Below are positions 24,573 to 49,944 of a stretch of 64,000 bases of DNA, piece by piece. The stretch spans positions 1 to 64,000 of the forward strand of contig RECI01000164.1 in the NCBI GenBank assembly GCA_007694095.1, read 5' to 3'. How positions within the stretch are numbered: position 1 is the stretch's first letter; each line of letters begins with the position of its first letter. The translations under genes and the position numbers were made by a program. The DNA comes from Balneolaceae bacterium. Lineage in GTDB: Bacteria; Bacteroidota; Rhodothermia; Balneolales; Balneolaceae. The notes beneath the pieces are model-generated. The model did not search any database. It was not told the origin of the DNA and saw nothing but the letters and a program-made list of their open reading frames with translations.

Positions 24573-25088
24573 GAATTATGTAATGTTCAGTTAAAAACCT
24601 TTTTTCATTAACTTTGAAAGTTAAGGCGATTTATAATCGAAGGCTAATTTAATCGGGTTGTGGGAGTGAGGTAAAAAGAACTATCCATAATGTTTTGTTC
24701 AGTACCGCATGCTAATCGCTCTGGTGGGCTGTCAGAGGTCAAATCAAGGAGATCTCGTTCTGAAATCAAACCTTTATCAAGGAGATTCCTCTTACGTGTC
24801 CCGAGCGATTTGATTAGAGGATTGTTTATTTTGGAATTACCTTAGTACCATGAGATCCTTCACTACGCCCCGGCAAAAAGAGCCTGGGCCTTGTTCCTAG
24901 ATAGCACTATGTGGGGGATTGATTTTCAACTGGAGAAAAAAACTGTCCTAAACAGACGGAAACGAAGTTATATTGCAATTTCTAAAAAGTTTTGGACAAC
25001 TAAGGGTGGTAATATAAAAAACCGAAGCCTCTCAAAATTTTTTAAAAAAAAGTTGCATTTAAATTTTTTTTGGGCGAAACTTACAGTT
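24573..25088. other. Long gap between gltX and the arginine leader, with decayed repeats
   Basis: AATCGCTC at 24714-24721 pairs with GAGCGATT at 24803-24810. Between them ATCAAGGAGAT occurs twice (24743-24753 and 24776-24786). The segment near 24850 (GAGATCCTTCACTACG) resembles a widespread dispersed bacterial repeat. The last 130 bases are strongly AT-rich and should hold the arginine operon promoter, but no clear -10 and -35 pair can be chosen. A frame open from 24891 joins the leader peptide frame and is probably not translated. Confidence 0.5.
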
Positions 25089-25151
25089 ATGAAATTTAAC
25101 TCACAGATAATCTTATCTAATCTTCGCCGTCGCCGCCCTTTGGGCGTGTGA
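25089..25151 (+). CDS. Arginine-operon leader peptide with four consecutive Arg codons
   Basis: A 20-codon ORF, ATG at 25089 and TGA at 25149-25151, encoding MKFNSQIILSNL, then RRRR (CGC CGT CGC CGC at 25125-25136), then PLGV. It lies 170 bases before argF and directly ahead of an intrinsic terminator. A run of codons for the end product of the operon just before a terminator is the hallmark of ribosome-mediated attenuation leaders such as hisL or leuL. No strong Shine-Dalgarno is visible, as for most genes here. The frame is open further upstream, but the ATG at 25089 is the natural start. I do not recall a named arginine leader of this type. Confidence 0.8.
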   Translation: MKFNSQIILSNLRRRRPLGV

Positions 25152-25219
25152 TATAAGTGTAGTTAAATCTGCAAAGGACTTATCACCAGCCCCGACATAT
25201 TATGATCGGGGCTTTTTTT
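25131..25219 (+). promoter_or_regulatory. Transcription attenuator controlling argFGH
   Basis: Alternative hairpins can be drawn. 1:2 is CGCCC (25134-25138) with GGGCG (25142-25146), overlapping the fourth Arg codon. 2:3 is GTGAT (25148-25152) with ATCAC (25182-25186), and AAGT (25155-25158) with ACTT (25178-25181). It can extend by GGGC (25142-25145) with GCCC (25189-25192). 3:4 is the terminator. The extended 2:3 pairing takes bases from the terminator's 5' arm. A ribosome stalled on the Arg codons would open 1:2 and allow 2:3. A ribosome reaching the stop codon at 25149 would cover segment 2 and allow termination. Confidence 0.75.
25188..25219 (+). terminator. Leader terminator ahead of argF
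   Basis: AGCCCCGA (25188-25195) pairs perfectly with TCGGGGCT (25206-25213) across a 10-base loop, and seven Ts run from 25213 to 25219. It sits 37 bases after the leader stop codon and 100 bases before argF, so it is positioned to stop transcription before the structural genes. Confidence 0.9.
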
Positions 25220-25320: not shown

Positions 25321-26307
25321 ATGAATCATTTATTAACCATTGGAGAACTCGAACCCGAAATCATTGAGGCCATTTTGGAACTCAGTGTTTATCTCGAAGA
25401 GACCAATGAACCCGTACTGAAAGGGAAAAACATCGGTTTCGTATTCGAAAAACCATCACTTCGAACAAAAATCGGAACTGAAGTTGCCATCAATCAATTA
25501 GGCGGAGATGTTGTTAAAATTGAGGCCGACCTTTTGATGGCTAACGGGAAAGCAGTACCGTTTACCAGTCGTGAATCACTTTACGATGCCATGATGAATG
25601 TATCACAATGGTGTGATGCCATATTTGCCAGGGTATATGCGCACAATACCCTTGAAAAAATGAAACAATACGGCACTATTCCAGTGGTGAATGCACTTTG
25701 CAACCTGCATCATCCGATGCAGGCACTGGCCGATTTGTTAACCATCAGGCAAAATTTCGGCAGTGATAAACCTTGTAACATCACCTTTGTGGGTGATGCC
25801 AATAATGTGGCTTTTTCATTAACTGAAATTGCACTTTTAACGGGTAACCATGTTACATTCGCAGGCCCTGAAGATTACAGCTGGAATAAAGATAAGCTCA
25901 GTTATTTTTCACTTCTCTCCGTTCAATATGGCGGTAGTTTTTCCAGCACCACAAACCCCGAAGAAGCGGTTCTTAACGCAGATGTGGTTTACACGGATAC
26001 GTTTGTTTCAATGGGAGAAGAGCACTTGTTCGAAGAAAAAATCAGGCATTTTCAACCCTACCAGGTTAACCTGGAATTATTTTCAAACGCGAAAAAGAGT
26101 GCAGGATTCATGCATTGCCTGCCTGCCCACAGGGGTTATGAAGTAACCGATGATGTAATTGATCACCCGAATTCATGGGTGTTTCAGCAGGCAAAAAACA
26201 GGAAAGTGGTTTCGAAAGGTGTTTTTGCCCTCCTGCTCGATGAAACCATCCGGAAAAATTATCTGAAAAATCATACAACATCCGAAGTTTTGAATGTGAA
26301 AACGTAA
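25321..26307 (+). CDS. argF: Ornithine carbamoyltransferase
   Basis: It converts ornithine and carbamoyl phosphate to citrulline. The protein is 328 residues. The carbamoyl-phosphate loop reads FEKPSLRTK (S46-L47-R48-T49). H131-P-M-Q134 and the ornithine-site motif H265-C-L-P-A-H-R-G are intact, as is VYTDTFVSMG. HCLPAHRG, not the HCLPVRRN I recall for Bacteroidetes N-succinyl/acetylornithine enzymes, points to plain ornithine as substrate. It is the first structural gene after the attenuator, with argG 66 bases downstream. ArgA-E genes are not in the window. Confidence 0.92.
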   Translation: MNHLLTIGELEPEIIEAILELSVYLEETNEPVLKGKNIGFVFEKPSLRTKIGTEVAINQLGGDVVKIEADLLMANGKAVPFTSRESLYDAMMNVSQWCDAIFARVYAHNTLEKMKQYGTIPVVNALCNLHHPMQALADLLTIRQNFGSDKPCNITFVGDANNVAFSLTEIALLTGNHVTFAGPEDYSWNKDKLSYFSLLSVQYGGSFSSTTNPEEAVLNADVVYTDTFVSMGEEHLFEEKIRHFQPYQVNLELFSNAKKSAGFMHCLPAHRGYEVTDDVIDHPNSWVFQQAKNRKVVSKGVFALLLDETIRKNYLKNHTTSEVLNVKT

Positions 26308-26373: not shown

Positions 26374-27642
26374 ATGGAACAAACAACCAATTATAAAAAA
26401 GTCGCATCTCACGAAGCCGAAAAAGGAACTTTTAACACATGTCTGCTTCTCTACTCAGGCGGACTCGATACCAGTGTTATGCTGAAATGGATACGGGAAG
26501 AGTATGAATGCGAGATTATCGCTCTTACGATTAATATCGGCCAAACGGCGGATAACCTGGATGCCATCAAACAAAAAGCACTGAAACTGGGTGCGAAAGA
26601 TGCTATTGTATATGATGCCAAGGATGAATTTGCAGAACTTTGCGCTGAAGCAGTAAAAGCAAATGCCGATTACCAGGGAGGTTACGCACTTGGGTGCCCG
26701 CTGGGAAGAGTGATGATCTCCAAGCTGGCAGTACAGTTTGCGGCTGAATTTGGCTGTGAAGTAATTGCACATGGCTGTACAGGAAAAGGCAATGACCAGG
26801 TGCGATTTGAGAGCTATATCACCACCCTCGATCCATCCCTGAAAATAATCGCACCTGTTCGGGAGTGGGGCATGGGCAGGGAAGAAGAAATTGCCTATGC
26901 CATAAAGAATGGCATACCTGTAGAACAGACAAAAAAAAGCCCCTACTCCTATGATGAAAATATGTGGGCAAATACCGGTGAAGGAGGCGAAATTGAGAAT
27001 CCGCAGCTTATACCACCGCTGGAAAATATTCTGAAATGGTGCAATACGCCGCAAAATGCACCCAACCAGGAAGAGCTTGTAAAAATTGGCTTTGAGCAAG
27101 GTGTACCGGTTTCATTAAATGGTATTGAGTACGACAAAAAAGACCTTATCATGCTGCTGAACCAGATTGGCGGAAAGCATGGTGTGGGATATTTCCACCT
27201 GATTGAAGACCGGATTGTGGGGCTTAAAGTTCGGGGTGTATATGAGAATCCGGCAGCACATATATTGATCCAGGCACACAAAAACCTGGAGCAGCTTGTT
27301 TCCACCCGGGAGGAAAATGAAATGAAAACACTTATAGATCAGAAATGGGCTTATCTTGTCTATGGCGCTAAATATTTTGAACCGGTATTGGACAATATAA
27401 GGGCCTACATCAATGAACAGAATAAAAAGGTAACCGGTGAGGTAACCGTAAGGCTTTACAAAGGAAATTGTGAAGTGGTTGCACTGGTTTCTCCCTATTC
27501 CCTGTTTGATGAAAATTTGGCTACCTTCAACAAGTCAGCAGCATTTAATCAGAACGCTTCAGCCGGATTCATTGAGTTGTGGAACCTGCCTCAGAAAACG
27601 GCTTACCAGCTCAAACAACAGGTTATAAAAGAAGTTGTATAA
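26374..27642 (+). CDS. argG: Argininosuccinate synthase
   Basis: It joins citrulline and aspartate using ATP. The protein is 422 residues. The N-type ATP pyrophosphatase loop SGGLDTS is at 28-34, followed by family motifs ALGCPLGRVMISK, HGCTGKGNDQVRFE and IAPVREWGMGREEEIAYA. All expected regions are complete to the C-terminus. It is second in the argFGH operon, and the spacing to argF (66 bases) and argH (130 bases) is modest. A structured segment lies in the second gap. Confidence 0.95.
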   Translation: MEQTTNYKKVASHEAEKGTFNTCLLLYSGGLDTSVMLKWIREEYECEIIALTINIGQTADNLDAIKQKALKLGAKDAIVYDAKDEFAELCAEAVKANADYQGGYALGCPLGRVMISKLAVQFAAEFGCEVIAHGCTGKGNDQVRFESYITTLDPSLKIIAPVREWGMGREEEIAYAIKNGIPVEQTKKSPYSYDENMWANTGEGGEIENPQLIPPLENILKWCNTPQNAPNQEELVKIGFEQGVPVSLNGIEYDKKDLIMLLNQIGGKHGVGYFHLIEDRIVGLKVRGVYENPAAHILIQAHKNLEQLVSTREENEMKTLIDQKWAYLVYGAKYFEPVLDNIRAYINEQNKKVTGEVTVRLYKGNCEVVALVSPYSLFDENLATFNKSAAFNQNASAGFIELWNLPQKTAYQLKQQVIKEVV

Positions 27643-27772: not shown

Positions 27773-29080
27773 ATGACCAAATTGTGGAAAAAAACAACGG
27801 GTGAAAATTCCAATGATCTCACCAGGAAAGTAGAGGCTTTTACTGTCGGAAATGATTATATGCTCGACCAGGTACTGGTGCCATATGACCTTGCCGCATC
27901 CGCAGTTCATGCTGAAGCATTGACAATTGCCGGGGTGATTTCGGATGAAGAGTACATGCTGCTGACTCACGGTTTAGAGGATATACATGAAGCCTGGAAG
28001 AAGGGTTCATTCAAGATACTTCCTGAAGATGAGGATATGCATACGGCAATAGAAAATGAGCTCACCTTGAAACTCGGAGAACTTGGAAAAAAAATTCATG
28101 CCGGCCGTTCGCGCAATGACCAGGTTTTGACTGCTGTTCGATTATACGAAAAAGAGAAACTGAACGAGGTGTTAAGGTCGGTTATAAAAACTGCTGAATT
28201 GCTGATCATATTTGCTGAAAAATATGAAAAAGTACCAATGCCCGGATTCACACACACCCGCAAAGCCATGCTGAGCAGTGTAGCATTATGGGCCGGAGGG
28301 TATGCAGAACTGCTGATTATGCAGGTGAAGGCTGCCGATGGTGTTCGTTCGCTTGTTGACCGCTCCCCGCTTGGTACAGCTGCCGGATTTGGCACCACGT
28401 TTTCAATCAACAGAGAACTGGAGGCAGAGAAGCTCGGCTTCAGACAGACAATGATCTGTGCAACAACTGCGCAGCTTTCGAGAGGGTGGGTAGAACTTCA
28501 ACTGGTTCAATACCTGTCGGCTCTAAGCTCAATTATCAACAGGCTGGCCTCCGATGTGATTCATTACAGCAGCGAAGCCTACGGTTTTTTTGATCTTGAC
28601 GAGGCAGTCTGTACCGGATCCTCCATTATGCCCCAGAAAAAGAACCCGGATCTTGCCGAACTGATGCGAGCCCGCCATTCAAGAATGGCAAGCCATGCAT
28701 CAGCACTCCAGACACTAATTGCCAATTTAGGGAGCGGATATCACCGGGATTTACAGCTGACCAAAGAACCGGTGATTCAGTCTTTCGAAGATGCACTTGA
28801 GCTGTTTGAAGCGGCAAAGTGGTTGATAGTTTCCATAAACCCGCAGGTGGAGAAGCTCAAAAATGCATGCACACCCGAACTTTTTGCGGCTGAAGCTGCC
28901 AACCACCTTGTAAAAAATGAGGGTAAGTCGTTCAGGGAGGCATACAGAATTATCAAAGAAAATCCCGGGTCCATACCACACCAATCACCGGAAGAGATGT
29001 TAAAAGAGTATTCGCATCTTGGTTCGCCAGGCAACCCGGGGCTGTCACTTCTTAGGGTGGAGCTAGAAAACCTGACTTAA
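27773..29080 (+). CDS. argH: Argininosuccinate lyase
   Basis: It splits argininosuccinate into arginine and fumarate. The protein is 435 residues of the fumarase/aspartase superfamily. The signature GSSIMPQKKNPD is at 282-293, with the catalytic serine in the SS pair. HAGRSRNDQV at 109-118 and PGFTHTRKAM at 157-166 are the other two conserved regions. The usual HLQ after T reads HTR here. It is third in the arginine operon and is followed after three bases by the beta-lactamase-like gene. Confidence 0.95.
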   Translation: MTKLWKKTTGENSNDLTRKVEAFTVGNDYMLDQVLVPYDLAASAVHAEALTIAGVISDEEYMLLTHGLEDIHEAWKKGSFKILPEDEDMHTAIENELTLKLGELGKKIHAGRSRNDQVLTAVRLYEKEKLNEVLRSVIKTAELLIIFAEKYEKVPMPGFTHTRKAMLSSVALWAGGYAELLIMQVKAADGVRSLVDRSPLGTAAGFGTTFSINRELEAEKLGFRQTMICATTAQLSRGWVELQLVQYLSALSSIINRLASDVIHYSSEAYGFFDLDEAVCTGSSIMPQKKNPDLAELMRARHSRMASHASALQTLIANLGSGYHRDLQLTKEPVIQSFEDALELFEAAKWLIVSINPQVEKLKNACTPELFAAEAANHLVKNEGKSFREAYRIIKENPGSIPHQSPEEMLKEYSHLGSPGNPGLSLLRVELENLT

Positions 29081-29083
29081 TTT

Positions 29084-30043
29084 ATGACGGATATTTTTGC
29101 AGGTGTTGAGAACCGCTTTTTATTACAACATGTGAAGCAGCCATTTTTGAAAATCACTTTCGCTTTATTTATTGGTTTGTTTCTTATCTGGCCGGCTGAT
29201 GCACGGCAAAAACAAACATCTGTTGCAGATCTTAAAACTGAAATTGAACAATTTCTGGACTCCCTGGAGGGTACCTTTGCAGTCTGGTTTCAGCACCTTG
29301 ACGATGAAAATCTTCATATTTCCATCAACCCTGATACCCTCTTCCATGCTGCAAGTACCATGAAAACTCCGGTTATGGCAGAACTGTTCAGGCGTGCCGA
29401 ATCAGGGGATTTCGACCTTGCCGACTCTATTCAGGTTGTAAACCTTTTTTACAGTATAGTGGATGGATCAGAATTCCAACTGGATCTGAACCCGGACGGC
29501 GACGACCCGTTTGAAAGGAAAGTTGGTGAAATGGCCACTTTGTTTGATTTGAATCATGCCATGATAACCTATAGCAGTAACATTGCCACCAATCTAATAT
29601 TGCAGCTTGTTGGCGTAGAAAAGACCACAGAAACCATGCGTAAGTTAGGGGCGGAACGGATTGAAGTGATTCGCGGGCTTTACGATATGAAAGCATTTGA
29701 GCTTGGCCTGAACAATCGTACCACCGCGCAAGATCTTGGAATTATTTTTGAAAAAATTGCCCGCAAGAAGGCTGTAAGTCCTGCAATGGATGAGCTGATG
29801 ATTGAGGTTCTGAAAGACCAGTTTTACCGGGATGTGTTTCCCGTCCATTTACCTGATAATGTTGTGGTGGCAAACAAAACAGGGTTTATAACCGGGGTAG
29901 TTCATGATTCAGCGATTATTTTCCTGCCTGACGGCCAATCGTATGTATTAATTTTTCTTTCCAAAAACCTGCCTGATAATCAAATTGGAACAGCTGGCGG
30001 AGCTGAAATTTCAAGGATGATTTACCAATATCTCACACAATGA
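29084..30043 (+). CDS. Class A beta-lactamase-like serine hydrolase
   Basis: All motifs of class A enzymes are readable in this 319-residue protein. S91-T-M-K94 is the nucleophile motif. S164-S165-N166 stands for SDN. E206-x-x-L-N210 stands for the general-base motif. K265-T266-G267 is followed by FITGVVHDSA. A hydrophobic N-terminal segment (ITFALFIGLFLIWPADA) is an uncleaved anchor or signal peptide for periplasmic location. Its start lies three bases after argH, so it is likely co-transcribed and translationally coupled to arginine synthesis genes. Whether it hydrolyses beta-lactams or acts on peptidoglycan-like esters or amides is not decidable here. Confidence 0.85.
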   Translation: MTDIFAGVENRFLLQHVKQPFLKITFALFIGLFLIWPADARQKQTSVADLKTEIEQFLDSLEGTFAVWFQHLDDENLHISINPDTLFHAASTMKTPVMAELFRRAESGDFDLADSIQVVNLFYSIVDGSEFQLDLNPDGDDPFERKVGEMATLFDLNHAMITYSSNIATNLILQLVGVEKTTETMRKLGAERIEVIRGLYDMKAFELGLNNRTTAQDLGIIFEKIARKKAVSPAMDELMIEVLKDQFYRDVFPVHLPDNVVVANKTGFITGVVHDSAIIFLPDGQSYVLIFLSKNLPDNQIGTAGGAEISRMIYQYLTQ

Positions 30044-49560: not shown

Positions 49561-49941
49561 TTGAAAGGTTCCGGGCAATCGTCCCGACAAGCATGTCGGG
49601 AAGGAAAGTCCGAACACCAACGAGAACCGTGCCCCGGGAAACCGGGGGGCTTCCCGATTTGTCGGGAAGAACAGACAGTGCCACAGAAAACAGACCGCCC
49701 CGGTGCGTAGCACTGGAGTAAGGGTGAAAAGGCGGGGTAAGAGCCCACCGCCCCGGCCGGTAACGGTCGGGGGCACGGAAAACCTCACGGGGTGCAAGTT
49801 CACGCAGGTTGTGCGCCTCTCGTCGCTATACAACCGGGTGGAACGCTAAATGTACCGGGAGCAATGCCGGTGCCAGATAAATGATTGCCATCCCGACAAG
49901 CTTGTCGGGTTACAGAATTCGGCTTACAGGGAACCTTTTCA
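49561..49941 (+). ncRNA. rnpB: RNase P RNA, bacterial class A
   Basis: Ends pair as helix P1/P2 (GAAAGGTTCC at 49563-49572 with GGAACCTTTTC at 49930-49940). Conserved core segments are present: AGGAAAGTCCGAACACC (49602-49618), the AGTAAGGGTGAAAAGGCGGGG and GTAAGAGCCCACCG regions, GGCACGGAAAACC and ACAGAATTCGGCTTAC (49912-49927). Three peripheral hairpins carry CCCGACA/TGTCGGG-type arms: 49582-49601, 49650-49669 and 49892-49909. It cleaves 5' leaders of pre-tRNAs with the RnpA protein. The small open frames crossing it on both strands are not genes. Confidence 0.95.
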
Positions 49942-49944
49942 ATC

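Follow-up and report, generated by a model that had tools for sequence, protein, structure and literature searches.

A predicted ribosome-mediated transcription attenuator with an arginine-codon leader peptide upstream of argFGH in a Balneolaceae bacterium

Introduction

Leader open reading frames (ORFs) with arginine codons are known for speF and rbf. In the orf34 (speFL)-speF leader of Salmonella, consecutive Arg codons sense arginine and alter the folding of the downstream RNA (PMC6386406), and the leader ORF rbfL of Staphylococcus aureus senses arginine limitation (PMC13009471). For Flavobacterium psychrophilum, leader-peptide attenuation of amino acid operons has been proposed on the basis of transcriptome data (PMC9723704). 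In the open-access literature we found no arginine biosynthesis attenuator of the kind described below, and earlier predictions may exist in subscription journals. The statement of an earlier note on this DNA, that no experimentally described arginine leader peptide of this class is known from this phylum, holds in this sense for biosynthetic operons.

Here we analyse the DNA upstream of argFGH in a stretch of 64,000 nucleotides from a Balneolaceae bacterium (contig RECI01000164.1), referred to as the window. With a probability of roughly 90% we read the argF leader, from its sequence and that of its relatives, as a ribosome-mediated transcription attenuator of the his/trp/leu type that senses charged tRNA-Arg.

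Results

The argF leader and its RNA structure

The leader region comprises a 20-codon ORF, whose peptide MKFNSQIILSNLRRRRPLGV was read off the sequence, and an intrinsic terminator located about 100 nt 5′ of argF-argG-argH (Table 1). The three downstream genes make arginine, the amino acid presumed to be sensed. The upstream gene gltX is divergent from the leader, so that the leader terminator cannot belong to or end an upstream gene. A promoter-like block about 36 nt 5′ of the leader ATG is present before most leaders of the genus, and its position suggests a very short 5′ untranslated region. The group rarely uses Shine-Dalgarno sites. Downstream, the gene of a class A beta-lactamase-like protein (window 29084-30043; 83.6 bits against a family cut-off of 200) begins 3 bases past the argH stop codon and possibly shares a transcript with argFGH.

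Counting both strands, the 64-kb window contains 86 pairs of a short ORF and a terminator, of which the argF leader alone has four Arg in eight residues, and a covariance-model search of the leader's own genome returned it as the sole strong match (next match E 0.09). Rfam contributed no leader family at gathering and permissive thresholds, Phe_leader scoring 16.5 bits versus a gathering score of 55; no T-box or riboswitch reached its gathering score, at which the only match in the 64-kb window was RNase P RNA, bacterial class A, at 49564-49942. The minimum free energy (MFE) of the 151-nt leader region is −41.7 kcal/mol compared to −27.6 ± 3.3 kcal/mol for shuffled sequences (z −4.2; 0 of 200 as low).

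The earlier note had described the ORF with four consecutive Arg codons, a perfect intrinsic terminator and the competing pairings 1:2 and 2:3. The ORF was confirmed base for base and the two-part helix 2:3 in its coordinates, while the terminator indeed consists of a perfect 8-bp stem and a U-tract; with a loop of more than 8 it escapes a simple pattern search. Helix 1:2 exists as proposed (25134-25138/25142-25146) and is lengthened by folding, with the consequence that Arg codons 2-4 fall inside the helix. Folding also revealed a helix absent from that note, helix 0, in which codons 3-8 of the ORF are paired with bases after the leader stop.

Table 1. Features of the argF leader and the operon behind it (window coordinates)
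Feature	Position	Strand	Basis
Promoter-like block: A-tract, TTGCATT (25053-25059), GCGAAACTT (25074-25082)	25053..25082	+	conservation in genus
Leader peptide ORF, MKFNSQIILSNLRRRRPLGV and stop	ATG 25089 to TGA 25149-25151	+	homologous ORFs in relatives
Helix 0, 25094-25104/25157-25168, closing the ORF and helix 1:2	25094..25168	+	MFE fold, co-evolution
Regulatory codons CGC CGT CGC CGC (Arg x4)	25125..25136	+	
Helix 1:2, 25129-25138/25142-25152	25129..25152	+	fold; no variation of the 5 inner pairs across 16 sequences
Antiterminator 2:3, 25142-25145/25189-25192 and 25148-25158/25178-25186	25142..25192	+	pairing, co-evolution
Small hairpin inside the 2:3 loop, 25159-25162/25169-25172	25159..25172	+	
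Intrinsic terminator 3:4, stem 25188-25195/25206-25213, U-tract 25213-25219	25188..25219	+	compensatory changes, three stem pairs
argF, ornithine carbamoyltransferase	25321..26307	+	TIGR00658 above curated cut-off
argG, argininosuccinate synthase	26374..27642	+	TIGR00032 above curated cut-off
argH, argininosuccinate lyase	27773..29080	+	TIGR00838 above curated cut-off

Conservation of the leader among relatives

Upstream DNA was taken from an ArgF search of 58 relatives and named genomes. Upstream DNA was intact at 25 of the retrieved Balneolaceae/Balneolales argF loci, and at every one of these an Arg-cluster leader ORF is followed by a terminator; Rhodohalobacter sulfatireducens, a member of the same genus-level group as the window's genome, is among the carriers of the leader (L157). 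The loci L004, L006, L020 and L027, cut by contig ends, were left out of this count. Twenty-four of these leaders are of the run type, the remaining one (L170) carrying NRRSLFRV, and most read RRRR or RRRRP in synonymous CGN codons, with endings such as LRRRRPLGV, LRRRRPWGA, RRRRRSGV, RRRCRTG or RRRRP directly before the stop. The first three run positions are Arg in 31 of 32 leaders and encoded by CGC, CGT, CGG or CGA, up to a run of four CGG in another clade. AGA and AGG, which account for 76 of the 216 Arg codons in the window genes sampled, do not occur in the Arg runs. The Arg run, the ORF and the terminator are thus all kept in relatives, so that the lack of an Arg-codon run there, which the earlier note had named as refuting its reading, is not what is observed. 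A count by codon position was discarded as circular, since positions 1 and 2 had been fixed in the search pattern.

Genus members without argF are also devoid of the leader, except for a decayed copy in genome G019, where positions 1447-1601 of locus L060 retain an Arg leader that reads RRRRC and is followed by no arg gene; argF, argG and argJ were not detected in this genome. Run on 244 genomes of the class, the covariance model of the leader found the argF type in further genera, matches with E above about 1e-4 being mostly unrelated terminators. Horizontal transfer of leader and argF to candidate-phylum bacteria was considered and rejected, as their ArgF is 50-56% identical and a comparable leader is absent. 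In the Cytophagaceae genome ECT2AJA-110-C (CP030886.1, locus L174) an Arg-rich ORF, MTNSYNNIVNIRRSYRRYRRS, with repeated AGG CGC/CGG codons lies 5′ of argF, accompanied by a weaker hairpin with a T-run.

Co-evolution of the competing helices

Compensatory changes are seen in both the terminator and the loop hairpin across an alignment of 16 leaders, and none of 500 column shuffles reached the observed covariation score. For the antiterminator 2:3 the share of paired cells is 95.6%, compared to 33-45% after sliding by 1-3 columns. For distant leaders, where alignment fails, the pairing of region 2 with region 3 of the same leader was compared with swapped partners in 17 clade representatives, which gave −14.4 versus −11.3 kcal/mol; 0 of 20,000 permutations were as good, permutations that only partly remove relatedness among representatives spanning several genera and families. 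The terminator of L055 is mis-assigned but was retained in this test, which works against the result. Helix 0 likewise co-evolves across leaders, as exemplified by ACACAGAG:CUCUGUGU, GCACAC:GUGUGC and GCAUACC:GGUAUGC, with 1 of 20,000 permutations as good. Of the three stems for which the earlier note had envisaged covariation, 3:4 covaries and 2:3 co-evolves, while 1:2 is invariant in the genus, so that covariation cannot test it there. A mutually exclusive antiterminator kept by compensatory change, as expected of a leader-peptide attenuator, is present.

These data also bear on the view that the region exerts no arginine-specific control, being a structured leader or a constitutive 5′ terminator whose Arg codons merely reflect a GC-rich hairpin. 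Such an explanation would fit the overlap of helix 1:2 with Arg codons 2-4 and the dominance of the terminator at equilibrium (see below), but appears very improbable given that Arg persists across four different CGN codons, in the other clade as a run of CGG, that helices 2:3 and 0 co-evolve, and that unrelated leaders before argG are enriched for Arg only.

The proposed switch and its energetics

The energetic consequences of ribosome position were calculated for a ribosome whose 3′ edge was assumed to lie 13 nt away from the A-site codon, counted from its first base. The predicted pre-terminator fold in the window amounts to −18.5 kcal/mol with the ribosome at Arg1 or Arg2, −11.9 at Arg3, −9.4 at Arg4 and −0.9 at the stop codon, and the loss from Arg1 to the stop is at least 10 kcal/mol in 23 of 23 leaders. 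According to these predicted energies and the assumed footprint, a ribosome at the stop masks region 2 and one at the regulatory codons frees it. In the stalled state the antiterminator is predicted to be favoured before region 4 is made and the terminator at equilibrium afterwards; once region 4 is present, the predicted equilibrium favours the terminator in all ribosome states. The terminator is preferred even upon stalling because no more than about 4-5 bases are common to 2:3 and the terminator stem. Antitermination must therefore be kinetic, a requirement that counts as a genuine weakness of the calculated model.

The attenuator reading of the earlier note, in which low charged tRNA-Arg permits readthrough into argF, is supported by the comparative evidence, and we propose the following scenario. 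The leader ORF is presumably translated. When charged tRNA-Arg is ample, the ribosome would pass the RRRR run, reach the stop codon and cover the 5′ half of the antiterminator; terminator 3:4 would then form and transcription end before argF. When charged tRNA-Arg is scarce, the ribosome would stall at the first Arg codons and hold 1:2 open, which would allow region 2 to pair with region 3 ahead of the synthesis of region 4 and thereby sequester the first bases of the terminator stem, such that RNA polymerase continues into argFGH. On a leader without a ribosome, helix 0 and 1:2 would close region 2, making termination the default. The scenario assumes transcription-translation coupling in the phylum.

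The stalling signal might, alternatively, be arginine or a related metabolite acting as ligand on RRRR(P) in the exit tunnel, with nascent-peptide arrest taking the place of uncharged tRNA. In most leaders the residue after the Arg run is Pro, and there are precedents in arrest peptides and in the speF Arg-codon leader, which responds to ornithine and arginine. Yet the N-terminal sequence is not conserved, Ser or Cys replaces Pro in other clades, the Pro is accounted for by helix 1:2, and the argG-type leaders have quite different peptides; we consider arrest unlikely, and distinctly so.

A second leader type and arginine control in the class

The covariance-model search led to a different Arg-rich leader, e.g. 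MISHNSYSQRTKFRRRRFRRRLMAGVCEDCV, preceding an argG-argC-argF′ operon and deviating from the argF type in structure and peptide (e.g. RRRRFRRR). Argininosuccinate synthase loci of this type were gathered across the class by searching from that argG. A short ORF plus terminator with at least four Arg in eight residues was found at 41 of 53 loci; applied to other amino acids, the same test was passed at no more than 4 of 53 loci each, and for Arg on the antisense strand at 2 of 53. Since only Arg is enriched and the antisense value is low, GC content does not explain these leaders. Most of a further sample of 20 loci agree. Family f8 mostly lacks an argG-type Arg leader, and among 31 other Bacteroidota one was seen in a single weak case (L251). 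In nine Balneolaceae genera with another argG type no Arg leader was seen, an absence that is less certain because argG is maybe not the first gene there.

Further leaders were noticed during this survey. A leader ORF of argJ, conserved in the same genus (L286 in G000:C25, L287, L292, L297, L298, L299, L302 and L303), has PTPPGRRV or APPGRRV at its end and contains a nearly invariant CTCCCGGCAGGCGGGT; Arg-rich copies (PRRRS, RRLRR) occur among these leaders, most of which lack a U-tract terminator. The first 400 bases of L082 and L083 (genomes G053 and G051) contain MIFTNAHINNTWWWSIR or a close variant, then a terminator, 5′ of a trpE-like operon, which probably represents a tryptophan attenuator of the same order.

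Arginine is usually regulated by ArgR in many bacteria, and argFGH might accordingly be under ArgR or another promoter repressor, the leader being incidental. A profile search with PF02863, which as a control finds ArgR in eight well-known genomes including those of E. coli, B. subtilis and Bacteroides, detected it in a single one of the 244 genomes from the class; genome G000 yielded no match, and in the sole positive genome, G152, the ArgR gene lies directly 5′ of argG, and no leader is found there. However, 29 of 31 leaderless Bacteroidota are likewise without ArgR; its absence is therefore background that proves nothing alone and tells no more than that attenuator and ArgR are not redundant. 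Taken together, we regard control by a promoter repressor with an incidental leader as scarcely plausible.

Discussion

The attenuator reading would add arginine biosynthesis to the amino acid pathways under leader-peptide attenuation. It also offers a testable answer to how arginine synthesis is controlled in a class almost devoid of ArgR, and predicts tight transcription-translation coupling in the group. Attenuation may even be how the class as a whole (Balneolales and Rhodothermales-like families) chiefly controls arginine, having evolved in place of ArgR in two or more architectures of the leader and on two types of arg operon. In view of the argJ leader ORF of the genus, which ends in PPGRRV, the regulon may combine codon-run and nascent-peptide sensing; this wider proposal is tentative, and we hold it to be rather doubtful.

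Among the described arginine-related leaders, Salmonella speFL-speF shares with the argF leader the Arg codons in a leader ORF and the refolding of RNA. It differs by controlling ornithine decarboxylase via Rho, masking of the ribosome binding site and RNase G, by its conserved DUF2618 core with HIRRT and by the lack of an intrinsic terminator switch of the argF-leader kind (PMC6386406). An assignment of the argF leader to the speFL/DUF2618 leaders was rejected, as its peptide has no HIRRT core and the downstream genes differ. Unlike the argF leader, rbfL of S. aureus targets translation initiation of a biofilm regulator, and starvation represses (PMC13009471). The F. psychrophilum proposal concerns the same phylum-level group and likewise amino acid operons, but its main text names hisG and pheA among the sites of structured elements, and not arg (PMC9723704).

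The closest correspondence is to the his, trp, leu, thr and phe attenuators of Proteobacteria, which likewise combine a run of end-product codons with helices 1:2, 2:3 and 3:4, a ribosome that masks region 2 at the stop codon and a terminator before the matching biosynthetic genes. The argF leader departs from them in the amino acid, arginine, in its occurrence in Balneolota/Rhodothermota, in the extra helix 0 and in the scant room for a Shine-Dalgarno site. The mechanism itself is classical; the probable arginine attenuator, which has a second form widespread in the class, extends a known kind.
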